Assembly (NCBI GenBank): GCA_017634975.1
Contig: JAGBMJ010000090.1
Span: forward strand, 1-32,269
Direction of reading: 5' to 3'
DNA: 32,269 nt
Source of the DNA: Lachnospiraceae bacterium
Lineage (GTDB): Bacteria; Bacillota; Clostridia; Lachnospirales; Lachnospiraceae
The translations under genes were made by a program, and so were the position numbers. The notes beneath the pieces were generated by a model. It did no database searches. It was given only the letters and a program-made list of their open reading frames with translations, and was not told where the DNA came from. This document shows positions 20,332 through 27,372 of this stretch, piece after piece; position 1 is the stretch's first letter; the number at the start of each line of letters is the position of its first letter.

Positions 20332-20480
20332 TTATACGCATAAACGAAATGGCTTACCGTTTCGTTTATGCGTTGCGCCGAGCACATGCCGCTTTAGCGG
20401 CTAAATTCCTTACGTGCGAGTGCGCATCCTGCCGGAGGCTTATACGCAATAACGGAAATGATTTCCGTTATTGCGTATAA
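20332..20480. repeat. 149-bp three-hairpin palindromic element (MITE/REP-like candidate)
   Basis: Left hairpin: ACGCATAAACGAAA (20336-20349) pairs with TTTCGTTTATGCGT (20360-20373), extended by inner G-C pairs to a CTTA loop. Middle: GCCGC-TTTA-GCGGC flanked by partly complementary TGCGC and GCGCA segments. Right hairpin: a perfect 20-bp inverted repeat, arms at 20440-20459 and 20461-20480 around one base. The two outer hairpins resemble each other (TATACGCA...AACG...AAAT), so the element as a whole begins TTATACGCA and ends TGCGTATAA, as terminal inverted repeats would. The right arm contains the stop codon of the EAL gene. No T-run follows the hairpins, so a simple terminator is unlikely. 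Confidence 0.7.
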
Positions 20481-23400
20481 TAGTCCCGGATCTCTACCGC
20501 CCGCTCGATCTGCGTTCCGTTGACTTCGATCTCCTGTCTGCCATTGATCAGCCGGACGCGATCCCCGGATGCCAGTGTGTCCCTGCCGCCGATATTCCGC
20601 AGCCGGATGCGAAGATCCGCGTTGACAAACTCCGCATCGGTATCCTCCGTATCACCGCCAAAGGCATATATGTTCTTTCCGTGACCTTCCATCCTGACCA
20701 TAGCGGTATCGATATGAAAATCCGTCTTCCCTTTCCAGGCTCCCACGGTGGCCGCGTGATCGGCCTGCAGATCCAGGCGCACATTCGAGTGACGGATCTC
20801 CACATCGGCCCGTGAACCAAATACTGTTCCCAAAGCCACCTGTGTATCGCCGCCCATCATACAGGTGACCGTTGCCCGGTCCACCGTCACCTTTGCCTCC
20901 TGCTCCAGACTTCCGGCAAAGACGGCTTTGGCCACATTGATGTCGCCCTTCATATCACAGTTCTGGATAAACAGCTCCACCGGCACCGAAACCGCCCCGA
21001 TCCCCACACCGTAGCTGCCGTTCGTATCGATCAGATACCGTCCACTGTATATAAAGATCGCACCGCCTCCGCCGGAACCGATCCCCACACCCTTCTGGCC
21101 ATTCATAATGATCCGGAGCATCCCGTCGTGATAAAATTCCAGCTTGCCATGTTTTTCTGTCCAGCTGTTGCCAATGCCGTAATAATCGCTTTCATCGACA
21201 CGGATCTCCAGGTCTCCATCCCCTTCCAGACGTATCTCCGCGCCATCCGGTACCAGAATACCGCCGCCCTGCAGATGATTTTCACCCGCAAGCGCCAACA
21301 CGACCGAACAATCCGCGGCGATGTCGATGCATGGGCGATTCTTGATATTTGAAAAAGATACATTTTCCAGCGTGATGCGTCCCTGATATCCACTGCGCAC
21401 TTCCAGATGGATGTCCGTCTTTTTTCCGGGCGTGCCGACAATCGTGATATCGCGGTAGATCTTTTCTCCGCCTTCCACCAGGATCGTATTAAAACTGTCC
21501 TTTACCAGCCCGCTTAAGAGCACACGCCCGCTGCGCCCCGCCGTATATACCCTGTGTTCCGATCCGTCCTGCCGCTCTCTCTGGTAGCGCAGGATCTCCG
21601 ACTTCGGCCGCCCGTCAATGCTCTGCCGCACCTCCGGATCGGGTCTTGCCGTATAATACCCCTGGATCAGATCCACACCCAGATGGATCACCGTCTGCAG
21701 CTCCTCCGTGGTCTCTACGCCTTCAGCGAGCGCCATAATCCCGTTCTCGTGGGAAAACTCCACGATCTCACGTACAAAATGCTGCTTCTGCGGGTTGTCC
21801 TGAATACCGGACAGAAGCGAGCGGTCAATCTTTACATACTGCGGCATATAACGCAGCAGATTGGCGATATTGGAATATCCCGTTCCGTAATCGTCTACCG
21901 CCGTATGGATCCCCAGTTCCTTATAGCGGATCTTCATCGCCTCCAGCGCAGCATCATCCAGTTCCGCTTCTTCCGTCAGTTCCACGACCGCCGTTGAGGA
22001 ATGGAGCTTCAGTTCCCGGTCCACCTTTTCCTTGTCCGCCTCATCCAGCGTGGTTCCGGGAATGCTGTTGATGAACAGCCGTCTGCTTTCAAACTTCTCC
22101 GGATGTTCCTTCAGATAATTCAGCACATTCAGAAACGTCAGGCGTTCCACATCATCCAGGCGGTTCATCAGTCCCGCATAACGGATGATCTGCAGGGGCG
22201 AGATCTTTTTATCCGTCTTTGCCCGCATCAGCGCTTCATATGCATAGATCTCACCATCCTTTGCATTCACGATCGGCTGGAAGAAATAGTGGAAGAGATT
22301 CTCATCCAGCAGGCGCTCCACTTCTTTCATATCTTCACGCTCGGCTTCCGTCAGCTCCTCCACTTCCGTCTTGCGCCTTCGCTCCGGAACCGCCTCCTGC
22401 CGGTCACCGTTCTGTCTCTGCATTTTTGCGGTCTCCACACGCCGGATCACTTCCAGACCGCAGGCCACTGCGCGGATCCAGCACCGGTATGTCCGGTCGT
22501 ATCCGAACAGCCCCTTTTTGTAACGGATCGCTGCATACCCAAAGCAGCCGGCCTCAAAAAACAACGGTGTAAACAGCCACGCTCTCGGATACTCGGCTTC
22601 CCTGTTCAGTTCCGGCAGCATCTCCTTCACAGAAAACGTCTCCTGCAGACTGACCTGACCGTCTGCTCCTTCGCCTCCGTAATGAATGGCATGCAGCATG
22701 ACCGGCGTATATCCCGCCTGGAACAGACGGCTTTCGGTAATACCGCCCGGCATCAGCCACTGGTCATTCAGGCACAGGTCAAAACTCTCGATGGGCTGCA
22801 GCTGATAAATGTAGTAGTACACAATATGCAAAAAATCCGCAAACGTATTCTGCATCAGCAGATCTTCCGTCATTTCATTCGTTGCGGACATAAAACCGTC
22901 CGAGGACAGTTCACTCTGCCAGTGCTTTCTTCGTCCAGCGTATCTGTCCTGATGATATGCACAACCGCAGCTGCCGCCTATGAATATCTTCGGCACCACC
23001 TTCGGTACCTCCGCCTCCCCGTCCTTCAGCATCTTTTCCAGATACTTCACTGCCTGTATGCCCATTTCTGCCGAGGGAATCTCTACCGAAGACAGTGGCT
23101 GCGGGCTGGTCTTGCCTTCCAGTGTGGCATCAAAACCGGTCACCGCGATATCCTCCGGCACACGTACACCATGCTTTTCCATTTCCTCGCAAAAGCCGAC
23201 TGCCATACAGTCATTGGCACACACGATCGCCTGCGGCATATGTTCCCGGTCTTTGAGCAGCTTCTCTGCACAGGCTTTTCCACTGGTATACCAGAAATCG
23301 CCGTAAAAGATCCTGTCTTCCCGAACGCTCAGACCATGGGCTTCCATCGCATCCCGGTACCCCCGCAAACGTTCCTGCGAATGCGGGTGCCATTCTTTGC

Positions 23401-23815
23401 CGGCAAGAAATGCGATATCCTCGTAGTGATGCTCTTCGATCAGGTGTTTTACCATCTTCCCGATCCCGGCAGCACCGTCGGTCCACACGGTCGGAAAATA
23501 CTTACTCCCGATATCAATACAGATCGTCGGACCATGGAACACTTCCTTTATGCGTTCCTCAATCTTTCCCGCCACCCCGGGTGTCTGTACCGTATCTGTC
23601 AGCAGGATCGCACCATCAAATTTTTCCTGATTGATCAGGCGGAAAATATTGGAATCGCTCTGTTCTCTGGCTGCGGTACTCTGATACATCCGGATCATGG
23701 AAAAAAAACACACGTCAAAATCCGCCTGCTGTGCCTGCTGTATAACTCCTTCGATGAAGTGGGTCTGATGATCGATTTCGGGTTGCCCCAGCATCACTGC
23801 GATTCTTTTGCGCAT
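20468..23815 (-). CDS. LacI-type sensor domain - EAL c-di-GMP phosphodiesterase - beta-helix-like protein
   Basis: 1115 residues, no signal peptide or membrane segment, so cytoplasmic. Residues about 3-285 are a periplasmic-binding-type 1 fold as in LacI/GalR regulators (VCANDCMAVGFCEEM, VPEDIAVTGFD), but the helix-turn-helix headpiece is absent. Residues about 300-465 are an unassigned linker/sensor. Residues about 495-735 are an EAL domain with all expected catalytic residues: Glu527 of EAL, Asn583, Glu612, Asp641-Asp642 in DDYGTGYS, Lys662, Glu698 and Gln718. Residues about 770-1095 are Gly-rich beta-strand repeats (GIGNSW, GVGIGSGGGG, GVGIGAV) resembling a right-handed beta-helix or carbohydrate-binding module. 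The likely role is sugar-responsive hydrolysis of cyclic di-GMP. A GAGGG ribosome binding site precedes the ATG. The gene is divergent from the 95-residue gene. Confidence 0.88.
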   Translation of the reverse strand: MRKRIAVMLGQPEIDHQTHFIEGVIQQAQQADFDVCFFSMIRMYQSTAAREQSDSNIFRLINQEKFDGAILLTDTVQTPGVAGKIEERIKEVFHGPTICIDIGSKYFPTVWTDGAAGIGKMVKHLIEEHHYEDIAFLAGKEWHPHSQERLRGYRDAMEAHGLSVREDRIFYGDFWYTSGKACAEKLLKDREHMPQAIVCANDCMAVGFCEEMEKHGVRVPEDIAVTGFDATLEGKTSPQPLSSVEIPSAEMGIQAVKYLEKMLKDGEAEVPKVVPKIFIGGSCGCAYHQDRYAGRRKHWQSELSSDGFMSATNEMTEDLLMQNTFADFLHIVYYYIYQLQPIESFDLCLNDQWLMPGGITESRLFQAGYTPVMLHAIHYGGEGADGQVSLQETFSVKEMLPELNREAEYPRAWLFTPLFFEAGCFGYAAIRYKKGLFGYDRTYRCWIRAVACGLEVIRRVETAKMQRQNGDRQEAVPERRRKTEVEELTEAEREDMKEVERLLDENLFHYFFQPIVNAKDGEIYAYEALMRAKTDKKISPLQIIRYAGLMNRLDDVERLTFLNVLNYLKEHPEKFESRRLFINSIPGTTLDEADKEKVDRELKLHSSTAVVELTEEAELDDAALEAMKIRYKELGIHTAVDDYGTGYSNIANLLRYMPQYVKIDRSLLSGIQDNPQKQHFVREIVEFSHENGIMALAEGVETTEELQTVIHLGVDLIQGYYTARPDPEVRQSIDGRPKSEILRYQRERQDGSEHRVYTAGRSGRVLLSGLVKDSFNTILVEGGEKIYRDITIVGTPGKKTDIHLEVRSGYQGRITLENVSFSNIKNRPCIDIAADCSVVLALAGENHLQGGGILVPDGAEIRLEGDGDLEIRVDESDYYGIGNSWTEKHGKLEFYHDGMLRIIMNGQKGVGIGSGGGGAIFIYSGRYLIDTNGSYGVGIGAVSVPVELFIQNCDMKGDINVAKAVFAGSLEQEAKVTVDRATVTCMMGGDTQVALGTVFGSRADVEIRHSNVRLDLQADHAATVGAWKGKTDFHIDTAMVRMEGHGKNIYAFGGDTEDTDAEFVNADLRIRLRNIGGRDTLASGDRVRLINGRQEIEVNGTQIERAVEIRDYYTQ

Positions 23816-23856: not shown

Positions 23857-24144
23857 ATGAACAAGAACGATCGAATATTCCAAAATGCATTGTCCAACTT
23901 TACTTTTGATCTGGCCAGCCGCGGCGCTATCCGCCATCTGGCCGATCTGGGCTACTCTGCCGCCGAGATCCGCGAACTTCTCGACTTTCCCACCCCTCTC
24001 CCGCAGATTGAAGAAGAGCTGCGCGCCTATCAGGCAGAAAAAGAGGCTGCCGAAACTTCCGGCATCACCTACGAGTACGTCCGTGAGACGGATGCATACG
24101 GAAGGACTTCACTGCGGCGCATCGCGGTCAAACATGAGGAGTAG
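23857..24144 (+). CDS. Small conserved-looking hypothetical protein (95 residues)
   Basis: I do not recognise the family. The protein is soluble, mostly helical and acidic at the end. It has a FQNALSNFTFDLASRGAIRHL segment, then LGYSAAEIRELLDFPTP (residues about 33-48), which looks like a small helix-turn-helix or MerR-like helical unit, and then a charged helix EEELRAYQAEKEAAE. It is the only plus-strand gene in the interior of the window and is divergent from the EAL gene, with 41 bases between start codons. I chose the ATG at 23857. The ATG at 23848 overlaps the -10 box. A regulatory role is possible but unsupported. Confidence 0.7.
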   Translation: MNKNDRIFQNALSNFTFDLASRGAIRHLADLGYSAAEIRELLDFPTPLPQIEEELRAYQAEKEAAETSGITYEYVRETDAYGRTSLRRIAVKHEE

Positions 24145-24171: not shown

Positions 24172-25341
24172 TCAGAACCGCCCCGCATTTCCGGACAGAT
24201 ACTCCGTATCTTTCTTTATGATCTTCAGAAATTTCGCCACTTCCTTCCAGGCTTCCTCCGCTTCCGGGAACAGATGAAATCCCATCTGGAAGATGTGGAA
24301 CATTCCCGGATACACATGCTTCTTGACAGGTACGCCGGCCTCCTTCGCTTTTGCAGCCACTTCCAGCGTATCGTCCAGCAGCATCTCCCGCTCGCCCACC
24401 TGCATCAGCATCGGCGGAAATCCATGGTAATCTCCGTTGATCGGAGAAATGTACGGATCCATTGGGTCATGCTCGGCATAGTAGCCTTCCTTGTAGACCA
24501 GTGTATCTCTGGAGCCGCCGAAGATCGGGTCGGTATCAAAATTCTCCTGATACGAATCGCCGCTCTTAGTCAGATCCGTCCAGGCCGACATCGTAACAAT
24601 CCCGCCCGGTAACGGCAGTCCGTAATCCTTCAAATACAACGTCAGCGCCAGCGCCAGTCCGCCGCCTGCAGAATCGCCGGCCAGGATGATATGCTCCGGC
24701 AGATAATCCTGCTCCAGCAGCCATTTGTAGGCTTCCTGCGCATCTTCCAGAGCCGCCGGATACGGATCTTCCGGTGCGGTACGGTAATCGATGCTCAGCA
24801 CATCCATCCCCCCGCCGCATTCGGAATACCAGACCGCCGCATCCCGGTAGGTATTGTGAAATCCGTTATAGTATCCTCCGCCATGCAACTGCAGGATCAC
24901 AAAACGTTCTTCCGGCGGCGTGCTCTGTCCGCTTGGCTTAAGGATCTCCATTGGAAAATGCTCCGTTTCGATCCCGGTATTCACATACCCGTCCGGGCAT
25001 TTCCACTCTTTTTCGTGCTCGTTGCGCCTGGCCTGCAGTTCACCGTTCTGCGACATATGTCCCAGCACCGGCAGGTGATTGGCTACTTCCACGACTTTAC
25101 GTGCTGTTCTTCCCCGAATACTTACCTGCGCAGCATCCGCTTTTGCCGCCTCTTTTTTTTCCGCGCGCCCGGCTTTCACCGTCTCGATCTTCTCTGCCTG
25201 CTGCTGCCGAAACGCCTCCCATTTCTCCGCGCGAACCGCAATGGCCGACTTCAGGCGTTCCATAAACGCATTTCTGGCCAGTTCCGGCTGCGGATGGTTT
25301 GCTTCCATATGCTCCCCCGTCAGTTTCATATCCTGTTTCAA
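24172..25341 (-). CDS. Alpha/beta hydrolase, HSL-type esterase
   Basis: 389 residues. The hormone-sensitive-lipase motif HGGG (153-156), the nucleophile elbow GDSAGG (Ser224), candidate Asp323/324 in MLLDDT and His349 in GMFHIF make a complete esterase triad. An unusual N-terminal charged helical stretch (about 25-72, many Ala, Glu, Lys) may be a coiled coil. No signal peptide is seen. I start at TTG 25341 because GGAGG lies eight bases upstream. Later ATG codons (25329, 25308) have poorer sites. The start overlaps the stop of the DUF6320-like gene, so translation is coupled in a three-gene cassette. The substrate is unknown, with an acylated product of the neighbouring transferase being the natural guess. 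Confidence 0.88.
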   Translation of the reverse strand: MKQDMKLTGEHMEANHPQPELARNAFMERLKSAIAVRAEKWEAFRQQQAEKIETVKAGRAEKKEAAKADAAQVSIRGRTARKVVEVANHLPVLGHMSQNGELQARRNEHEKEWKCPDGYVNTGIETEHFPMEILKPSGQSTPPEERFVILQLHGGGYYNGFHNTYRDAAVWYSECGGGMDVLSIDYRTAPEDPYPAALEDAQEAYKWLLEQDYLPEHIILAGDSAGGGLALALTLYLKDYGLPLPGGIVTMSAWTDLTKSGDSYQENFDTDPIFGGSRDTLVYKEGYYAEHDPMDPYISPINGDYHGFPPMLMQVGEREMLLDDTLEVAAKAKEAGVPVKKHVYPGMFHIFQMGFHLFPEAEEAWKEVAKFLKIIKKDTEYLSGNAGRF

Positions 25342-26033
25342 ATATGGAACCTCCGTCCGAGCTCACGCTTCATCGCCTTCTCACCAAAGGTAATGGTTGC
25401 CAGCAGATAAATGCCCGTCACCGCCACACAGATCACCGGCAGGACCAGATTGCTGATCACCTTGATAAAGTACAGTCCCAGGATTCCCACACTGCACACG
25501 CCCATCAGGATCAGCAGCAGGCTGTAGCTGAACCACCTGCTGCGGTTGAGCATCATCAGGATAAATACGATTCCGTCTCCGAGCAGTATGGCGCCGGGGA
25601 TCGCCCACTGCAATGCCCATCCGTAGTTTCCGGTAAATTTGTCGATCTCATACAATACCACCATGGTAAAGAGGATCTGCAGCCCCACCTTAAGCGCAAA
25701 CCCGGAATCGTTCCGGATCCAGACCAGCAGGAAGAGATATCCGTAGGCCAGCGCCACCCCGGTGATCGCCGCCCAGCAGAAACCCGGTGTGGTCAGATGA
25801 TTGATCAGGATCAGCAGCGCCTCGACGATCACAAAAACAAACAGTACCAAACGAAGGGCAAAACGCAGCCATTTATGCCGTCTTTGCGCATTGGGATACG
25901 GAGCGCCTTCCCCGAACTTGTCCTTTGCGCGCTTCTCCTCTGCCGGCTCCAGTTCCTCGACCACACAGTGGCACAGGGGGCAGGTATCGGTACGGTTATA
26001 TAAGATCACTTTACACTGTGGACACTTGTTCAT
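25338..26033 (-). CDS. Zinc-ribbon multipass membrane protein (DUF6320-like)
   Basis: 231 residues. An N-terminal zinc ribbon CPQCKVILYNRTDTCPLC (two CxxC pairs, residues 4-21) is followed by a short cytoplasmic segment. About six hydrophobic segments then run from residue 57 to 215 (for example LVLFVFVIVEALLIL, LLILMGVCSVGILGLYF). This matches the DUF6320 family, which I recall as partners of condensation-like acyltransferases in Clostridia. No biochemical function is known to me. It overlaps the acyltransferase by 23 bases and abuts the hydrolase start, so all three genes are translationally coupled. Confidence 0.75.
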   Translation of the reverse strand: MNKCPQCKVILYNRTDTCPLCHCVVEELEPAEEKRAKDKFGEGAPYPNAQRRHKWLRFALRLVLFVFVIVEALLILINHLTTPGFCWAAITGVALAYGYLFLLVWIRNDSGFALKVGLQILFTMVVLYEIDKFTGNYGWALQWAIPGAILLGDGIVFILMMLNRSRWFSYSLLLILMGVCSVGILGLYFIKVISNLVLPVICVAVTGIYLLATITFGEKAMKRELGRRFHI

Positions 26034-27372
26034 GTTTCTTTTTCCGTTTGCCTTTCACCGGCTGCTCCGCCGGTTGTTCTGCCGTTTGTTCTTCCGTATA
26101 TTCATTCGTTTCTACCGCCACTTCCACACCGTCTGCCGTGATGGACTGGAAGAAACGCTTCTGGATCGACCTCTCCGCCAGACACGAGGTAAAGGTAACG
26201 ATCAGTGTCCCATTGTAGGAACAGATCGCACCTTTCATATTCTGGCCCTTGGACATCGCGAGCATCGCATAAAAATGCTCCACATACTTCTGATACGGTT
26301 CCCGCAGTTCCACATTTCCCACATTGGTCATCGTCGCCGTTGCCGTGTCCGCCGAGGAATTGTATACCTTACGGATCGCAATATTTTTGATAAAGATCGG
26401 GATCGGCCGCAGAAATTTGTTCTGCTCATTGGACACATTGTAGGACAGGATCGTTTCCAGATTCTCCTTCGTCGTCTGCTCCTTCAGCGTCGCGATCACA
26501 AAATCCAGCACTTCATCGCGGCTATAGTCTTCCTTCGTCGGCTGAAACTTTGCCGATACGATCACGAAGAAATTCTTCATCGTATGGGAATCATACAATT
26601 TCCGCAGATCCACCGGTACACAGCAGCTGATGGGCAGTTTGGACGGTGCTCCCTTCAGATACTCCTTATACATCGCATAGATAAAGTTTCCTACCAGATA
26701 CTGGTTGATCGTCGCACCATGTGCCTTGGCCGCCGCCTTCAGTTCATCGATCTTAAAGTATCCATGCAGGACGGAAACCTCACCCTTCGGCAGCCTCTCG
26801 CCTTTTAAGACCACTGCCTTACGGGAACCATAAGCCCTGGAATGATCCGCACCCTTTTTGAAATTCTTCAGATAGCTGTCCTCCGGATCCAGAAAGATCC
26901 CCGTTGACAGCTTGTCTTTTTCCCCCGCCAGCTCCTCCGGATGTGCCAGCCGCAGATACTGATACACCAGCTCCTTCAAAAATACAAAGCCGCCGAAACC
27001 ATCGGTCAGTGCATGAAAAACCTCCAGATTGATGCGGTTGCGATAATAGGTTACACGGAACATATACTGGTTATTCCGGCTCTTATTGATATACGCTCCA
27101 GGATAATCACTTTCTTCCTGTACCTCCGGAGCTTTGCGATCATTCTCTTCAAAGTAATACCAAAAAAAGCCCATTCGCAGACGCATACGAAAGGTTTCGA
27201 ACTGCGACAGGACTTTTTCCTCTGCTTCCTGCAGCAGTTCTCTCCGAACCGGCTCCTTCAGCGTCGCGCAGATGCGATAGGTACTGCTCATGTCTTCTCC
27301 GGAGATGACCGGAAAAAGCAATGCCGTATTATCCAGTTTTGCCCAGCTGGGCTGCTTCTTTCTGCTTCCCAT
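26011..27372 (-). CDS. Condensation-domain/alcohol-acyltransferase-like protein
   Basis: 453 residues in the superfamily of CoA-dependent acyltransferases. The catalytic HxxxDG motif is FHALTDGFGG (His120, Asp124, Gly125), and the N-terminus (K-x-x-WAKLDNTALLFP) is characteristic of the alcohol acetyltransferase-like subgroup. The C-terminal region has a Gln/Glu/Pro tail (EEQTAEQPAEQPVK) and a basic end KGKRKKKHEQ. It presumably transfers an acyl group to a hydroxyl or amine acceptor. Donor and acceptor are unknown. There is no adenylation or carrier protein gene nearby, so it is not a peptide synthetase. It is first in the cassette with the zinc-ribbon membrane protein and esterase. No ribosome binding site is visible. 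Confidence 0.75.
   Translation of the reverse strand: MGSRKKQPSWAKLDNTALLFPVISGEDMSSTYRICATLKEPVRRELLQEAEEKVLSQFETFRMRLRMGFFWYYFEENDRKAPEVQEESDYPGAYINKSRNNQYMFRVTYYRNRINLEVFHALTDGFGGFVFLKELVYQYLRLAHPEELAGEKDKLSTGIFLDPEDSYLKNFKKGADHSRAYGSRKAVVLKGERLPKGEVSVLHGYFKIDELKAAAKAHGATINQYLVGNFIYAMYKEYLKGAPSKLPISCCVPVDLRKLYDSHTMKNFFVIVSAKFQPTKEDYSRDEVLDFVIATLKEQTTKENLETILSYNVSNEQNKFLRPIPIFIKNIAIRKVYNSSADTATATMTNVGNVELREPYQKYVEHFYAMLAMSKGQNMKGAICSYNGTLIVTFTSCLAERSIQKRFFQSITADGVEVAVETNEYTEEQTAEQPAEQPVKGKRKKKHEQVSTV

Follow-up and report, generated by a model that had tools for sequence, protein, structure and literature searches.

A candidate sugar-gated EAL phosphodiesterase with a predicted cytoplasmic beta-helix in Lachnospiraceae

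What could a beta-helix of the extracellular type be doing at the end of a protein that has no recognizable export signal? The question is raised by a minus-strand gene at 20468..23815 of contig JAGBMJ010000090.1 from the Lachnospiraceae bacterium assembly GCA_017634975.1; the whole contig, 32,269 nucleotides, was analysed and is called the window below. The encoded protein of 1115 residues combines a sugar-binding core of the LacI type, an EAL domain and a long tail. We consider it rather probable, from sequence comparison and structural models, that this is a cytoplasmic sugar-gated phosphodiesterase of cyclic di-GMP (c-di-GMP) whose tail is a surface module exapted for docking, and that a GGDEF domain was lost once in its history.

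Domains of the protein

The gene is a single intact frame of 1115 codons on the minus strand (20468-23815). The frame from stop to stop has 1116 residues, with a stop one codon 5' of the ATG, and thus an in-frame N-terminal DNA-binding head cannot have been overlooked; a hidden helix-turn-helix (HTH) head was rejected on these grounds. The following features were assigned.

20468..23815, minus strand: whole gene, 1115 residues (coding positions 20471-23815 plus the stop)
22952..23815, minus strand: LacI/GalR-type sugar-binding core without an HTH head, residues 1-288
22406..22918, minus strand: GAF-like alpha/beta segment (weak assignment, from the order of strands and helices in the model), residues 300-470
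22304..22495, minus strand: helical linker in the model, residues 441-504, with helices 441-471, 476-486 and 490-504
21641..22324, minus strand: EAL phosphodiesterase domain, residues 498-725, eight tested catalytic positions intact
20471..21580, minus strand: beta-helix tail without a Pfam match, residues 746-1115 (370 residues)

The Pfam scan of the protein produced Peripla_BP_3 at 122-283 (E 1.5e-29) and EAL at 498-725 (E 2.7e-53). It gave no match for residues 290-480 or 745-1115, no HTH headpiece of LacI/GalR regulators and no GGDEF domain ahead of EAL, such as is found in relatives. The first-pass annotation had described a LacI-like fold lacking its DNA-binding headpiece, and the Peripla_BP_3 match and the stop before the ATG bear this out; it had passed over the segment 300-470, the minus strand and the breadth of the family.

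The sugar-binding core is recognized by Pfam, by structural alignment and by alignment of anchor residues. R149 is conserved in 66/66 family members, N201 in 65/66 and D229 in 61/66. In an alignment they correspond to R, N and D in AscG and in an ancestral LacI, residues that we take to contact sugar in LacI. The two-lobed core is shared with the LacI/GalR regulators CcpA, AscG, RbsR and CelR at 20-26% identity in structural alignments. However, these regulators have an HTH head and act on DNA, whereas the protein considered here has no head and an EAL output.

In the EAL domain, E527, N583, E612, D641, D642, K662, E698 and Q718, presumably the catalytic positions, are identical in all 66 aligned members, the 1115-residue protein included, in agreement with the complete catalytic set claimed earlier. 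The catalytic residues are common to EAL phosphodiesterases of c-di-GMP, from which the protein differs by the cytoplasmic LacI core as a sensor, the beta-helix after EAL and the lack of GGDEF. Of the four segments compared with three orthologues, EAL has the lowest rate of nonsynonymous substitution (dN) in every comparison, with a ratio to the synonymous rate (dN/dS) of 0.05-0.09. All four segments are under purifying selection (dN/dS 0.05-0.20, synonymous sites of the most distant orthologue being nearly saturated).

The assignment of the middle segment is weak. One of ten members matches GAF_2 (E 0.006), the protein itself matches nothing in the GAF profile search, and the best hit of segment 300-470 in the Protein Data Bank (PDB) profile search has E 0.4; the predicted order of strands and helices suggests a GAF-like domain at best. 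The linker 441-504 joins the sensor to EAL at the place where relatives, by alignment and Pfam, have their GGDEF domain.

No signal peptide or membrane segment was found by a simple hydropathy test (the 19-residue maximum is 1.27), and the absence of an export signal noted in the first pass holds. None of the 66 members exceeds 1.9 within the first 70 residues, the highest value being 1.55; the separation is imperfect, as a protein with a partial tail match (L160) scores 1.57. Four of the 66 reach 1.61-1.79 outside the N-terminus, within the tail or the middle segment.

The same genome contains a second, exact copy of the gene on contig C106, read as assembly redundancy (genome contamination estimate 7.46), a paralogue with 48% identity on contig C51, and a relative on contig C1 that has GGDEF, EAL and tail but no sugar core.

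The beta-helix tail and its relatives

AlphaFold folds the tail alone into one regular beta-helix (mean predicted local distance difference test, pLDDT, 94.1; predicted template modelling score, pTM, 0.91). The same helix appears in the full-length model, where the ten-residue blocks of 811-1100 have pLDDT 91-97, except for one block at 81. The beta-helix-like tail suspected from the sequence is thereby upheld by prediction.

The tail has no Pfam family: a scan of 16 members with an E limit of 5 did not bring up PF14262. Profile search of the segments thus recovered Peripla_BP_3 and EAL, as foreseen in the first pass, and no beta-helix family. The PDB profile search with the tail gave a best E of 0.4, and Foldseek gave nothing at E 0.001 or better. 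A structural neighbour of the tail is Cthe_2159, with a beta-helix fold like that of 4phb.

The tail profile is homologous to beta-helices of proteins with signal peptides. In an even draw of genomes at the order level, nine other proteins had partial tail matches, and the seven examined all have signal-like N-termini; the other two had no profile match in the frames used, and the two proteins with partial matches in a class-level draw (genomes G499 and G641) were left out. The reversed tail profile found no secreted protein, its one match being the EAL protein L202 (15 bits), and 20 column-shuffled profiles had zero matches; these controls rule out a glycine-rich composition artefact as the source of the likeness. 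The fold is shared with Cthe_2159 (PF14262), a polysaccharide-binding protein, and with PF18889 proteins. However, the seven homologues examined have signal-like N-termini, whereas the tail is linked to EAL, has no signal and matches neither Pfam model.

Distribution and history

At least 515 matches were confirmed, of which the 80 ranking highest in likeness to the 1115-residue protein were kept as named loci. Among these 80, EAL and tail are present in all and the sugar core in 79, the exception ending at a contig edge; none has room for GGDEF, the largest gap being 59 residues. This uniformity is biased, because the loci were ranked by similarity to that very protein. The hosts among the matches listed are numerous genomes of Lachnospiraceae and Ruminococcus, for the most part rumen assemblies, including Ruminococcus flavefaciens, R. 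albus and Lachnospiraceae strains AB2028, AC2031, NC2004 and C6A11. The bacterium of the window is itself probably of rumen origin.

Within its own genus the tail occurs in 33/35 genomes, the window's genome included, and in 23/23 of good quality; in a second genus it occurs in 67/85 (38/46 of good quality). It is rare beyond certain genera. Any tail match, full-length or partial, at E 1e-4 was seen in 12/295 genomes of the order-level draw, and a match at E 1e-10 in 15/391 genomes of a class-level draw, counts in which not all first-look candidates were scored (e.g., 5 of 17 in one genome of the class draw). The homologues and the genus-wide counts rule out a singleton. The combination of three modules, called unusual in the first pass, is therefore not singular, being found in most genomes of two genera; still, no published description of the architecture was found in the open-access literature, subscription papers being outside the search.

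All 19 near-full-length tails (at least 300 of 365 positions) are in frame with EAL. This linkage was counted on the order and class draws, not on the two genus counts; 18 tails are left without a duplicate contig, and four come from the window's genome. Two of the 19 stand behind membrane-type N-termini (L202 and L203, hydropathy 2.7 and 2.5), the former having EAL with a weak GGDEF by Pfam. The presence of the tail with EAL across different N-termini indicates that the tail goes with EAL and not with the sugar sensor. This weakens the suggestion that the tail serves the LacI core in particular, as a second input for sugar.

A tree of EAL domains was built from 45 hand-chosen rows (L172 and L204 are one gene; L202 and L203 are labelled GGDEF-less by a custom profile, Pfam giving L202 its weak GGDEF). 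In it, 17 GGDEF-less proteins composed of sugar core, GAF-like segment, EAL and tail form one clade (97/91) amid GGDEF-bearing rows. The tail is also present in rows branching outside this clade, behind several N-termini including those of the membrane type (L202, L203). On this sequence evidence a single loss of GGDEF is probable, the ancestor having had the LacI-GAF-GGDEF-EAL-tail order. The tree includes 11 different tail-bearing relatives with GAF and GGDEF, 10 of which have G in place of the D in the GGDEF motif, and we infer that the GGDEF domains of the relatives are mostly incapable of acting as cyclases. Degeneration before loss is likely.

Proposed function and its alternatives

The coupling of sugar to c-di-GMP breakdown, already suggested in the first pass, may work as follows. 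The LacI-type core would bind a cytoplasmic ligand, a small sugar or a derivative of one, as its conserved anchors suggest. Its closure and a rearrangement of the dimer would be relayed by the GAF-like segment and then by the linker 441-504 until they reach the EAL dimer, a path proposed from the model and from the precedent of EAL proteins. The EAL domain, in which the eight tested catalytic positions are intact, would then hydrolyse c-di-GMP. PilZ proteins would respond to the lowered level, as would c-di-GMP-I riboswitches, of which one directly precedes a type IV pilin-like gene, and adhesion to plant fibre and movement would follow sugar supply. The tail, with its fold predicted at high confidence, may be a surface-type beta-helix reused in the cytoplasm as a rigid module for docking or oligomerisation. 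Travelling with EAL, it would tie the enzyme to one partner or site.

The genome contains three PilZ matches, 50 GGDEF matches that pass the cut-off (duplicates counted) and five c-di-GMP-I riboswitches. At L197:6592-8279 (minus strand) one riboswitch is about 70 bases upstream of an N_methyl type IV pilin-like gene, which is followed by a RimK-like ATP-grasp gene; flagellin is encoded within the same 9.5 kb. Two tandem riboswitches (L198:1834-2178) occur at a contig end, and the gene they control is off the contig. Cellulose adhesion of R. albus proceeds via type IV pili, according to a review (PMC6916266). A Clostridium difficile study among the references of that review reportedly tied c-di-GMP riboswitches to pili.

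Ten LacI-like matches coincide with a GGDEF match in contig and frame length (contigs C6, C14, C21, C23, C28, C33, C99, C111, C116 and C121). These are probable sugar-gated cyclases, beside two LacI-EAL-tail proteins, and sugar-gated c-di-GMP control may be a theme of this genome. Flytrap-type sensors wired to c-di-GMP turnover, such as RmcA and SBP_bac_3, are covered by a review (PMC8846402). They resemble the 1115-residue protein in this wiring, but the review describes the clan as periplasmic, and there the LacI-type domain is only a putative sensor that may bind sugars.

Several observations weigh against a sugar-gated enzyme with a docking tail. The full-length model has a pTM of 0.45, so that the placement of domains and the signal path are not predicted. 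CelR has S at the position of N201, and CcpA has K and T at those of R149 and N201; solved receptors thus differ at the anchors, which do not specify the sugar. Some EAL domains that look intact may act as receptors. The tail has few conserved polar residues and the highest dN (0.14-0.36 vs 0.05-0.09 for EAL in the three orthologue comparisons). Moreover, it is absent from L036, L037, L060, L038 and L056 and short in 3/71 complete frames (L122, L124, L136), and hence is not indispensable. As for history, the root of the EAL tree is a midpoint, and the GGDEF-bearing relative L177 has an intact motif, for which reason degeneration before loss is no more than likely.

One broader possibility, which we hold to be unlikely, is that EAL and tail together form a localised c-di-GMP sink, a surface-adhesin helix taken into the cell that would read an intracellular polymer or assembly, or dock on it, while interchangeable sensors, in this case a cytoplasmic sugar receptor, gate the enzyme. 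Storage glycan, an exopolysaccharide synthase and the pilus or flagellar base are candidates for such a target. It is somewhat less probable that the tail reads an intracellular glycan, such as storage polysaccharide or exopolysaccharide being made, which would confine c-di-GMP removal to the vicinity of the polymer, the LacI core reading free sugar.

The protein might also be a receptor and no enzyme, EAL binding c-di-GMP and the tail presenting the signal to a partner. The EAL domains of LapD and FimX, which are receptors, are among its high structural matches, and a large partner-binding tail would suit such a role. On the other hand, receptor-type EAL domains have usually lost some catalytic residues, whereas here the eight tested positions are invariant in 66/66, and we regard a receptor as improbable. 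It is hardly probable either that the tail is a passive fusion with hardly any role, which was tolerated once an EAL gene had by accident been joined to a surface beta-helix gene: its dN, the highest of the four segments in three comparisons, and its absence or shortness in some relatives would fit, but it is kept in 33/35 (23/23 good) genomes of the genus and 67/85 of the second, with dN/dS 0.12-0.17.

Gene neighbourhood and implications

The gene is separated from its nearest neighbours by 248 and 357 bases. On one side are a TPP/POR oxidoreductase pair, presumably of the indolepyruvate type, a PaaK-like ligase and an ACT protein. On the other (window positions 24172-27372) are an esterase (alpha/beta hydrolase), a DUF6320 gene and a weakly acyltransferase-like (PapA-like) gene, perhaps an uncharacterised set for acyl transfer. 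Arabinofuranosidase, ABC permease, two-component, isomerase, esterase-GH43 and FGGY kinase genes are farther off.

Among the 80 best of at least 515 loci, the window's neighbours recur solely in the three closest (L062-L064), and neither an operon with the hemicellulose locus nor a family-wide conserved neighbour is supported. The tie to that locus drawn in the first pass is thus unsupported. Of the clusters formed by neighbouring genes, the largest two are one of ABC-ATPases (two members examined) and one whose single examined member is a GGDEF-EAL protein. A loose cluster at 30% identity occurs near 11 of the 80 loci, including L084, L121, L138 and L139; the one member examined, at L121, encodes a GGDEF-EAL protein whose N-terminus is hydrophobic, and it lies next to the gene for sugar core, EAL and tail, in divergent orientation.

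A conserved open reading frame of 95 codons (23857-24144, plus strand) diverges from the gene, with 41 bases between the start codons. It has no Pfam match above cut-off and weak HTH-like matches. It was found in 30/35 genomes of the genus, and in at least 11 of these 30 it shares a contig with a sugar core-EAL-tail gene, at a distance of about 7 kb or less. Its product is a possible partner or regulator of the 1115-residue protein. The Rfam scan of the window gave no matches, and the promoter scan found two against 4.0 expected.

The family is real and conserved, and apparently undescribed in the open-access literature. Its chemistry would be ordinary; the new part would be a cytoplasmic beta-helix tied to EAL. 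To our knowledge, it is poorly understood how gut bacteria attached to fibre choose between staying on a plant particle and leaving it. The family, found in fibre-digesting gut bacteria and carried by the Ruminococcus and Lachnospiraceae strains named above, is a candidate for a direct wire from internal sugar to the messenger of attachment. It also suggests that a beta-helix of the extracellular type may work in the cytoplasm, in a domain without a Pfam model.
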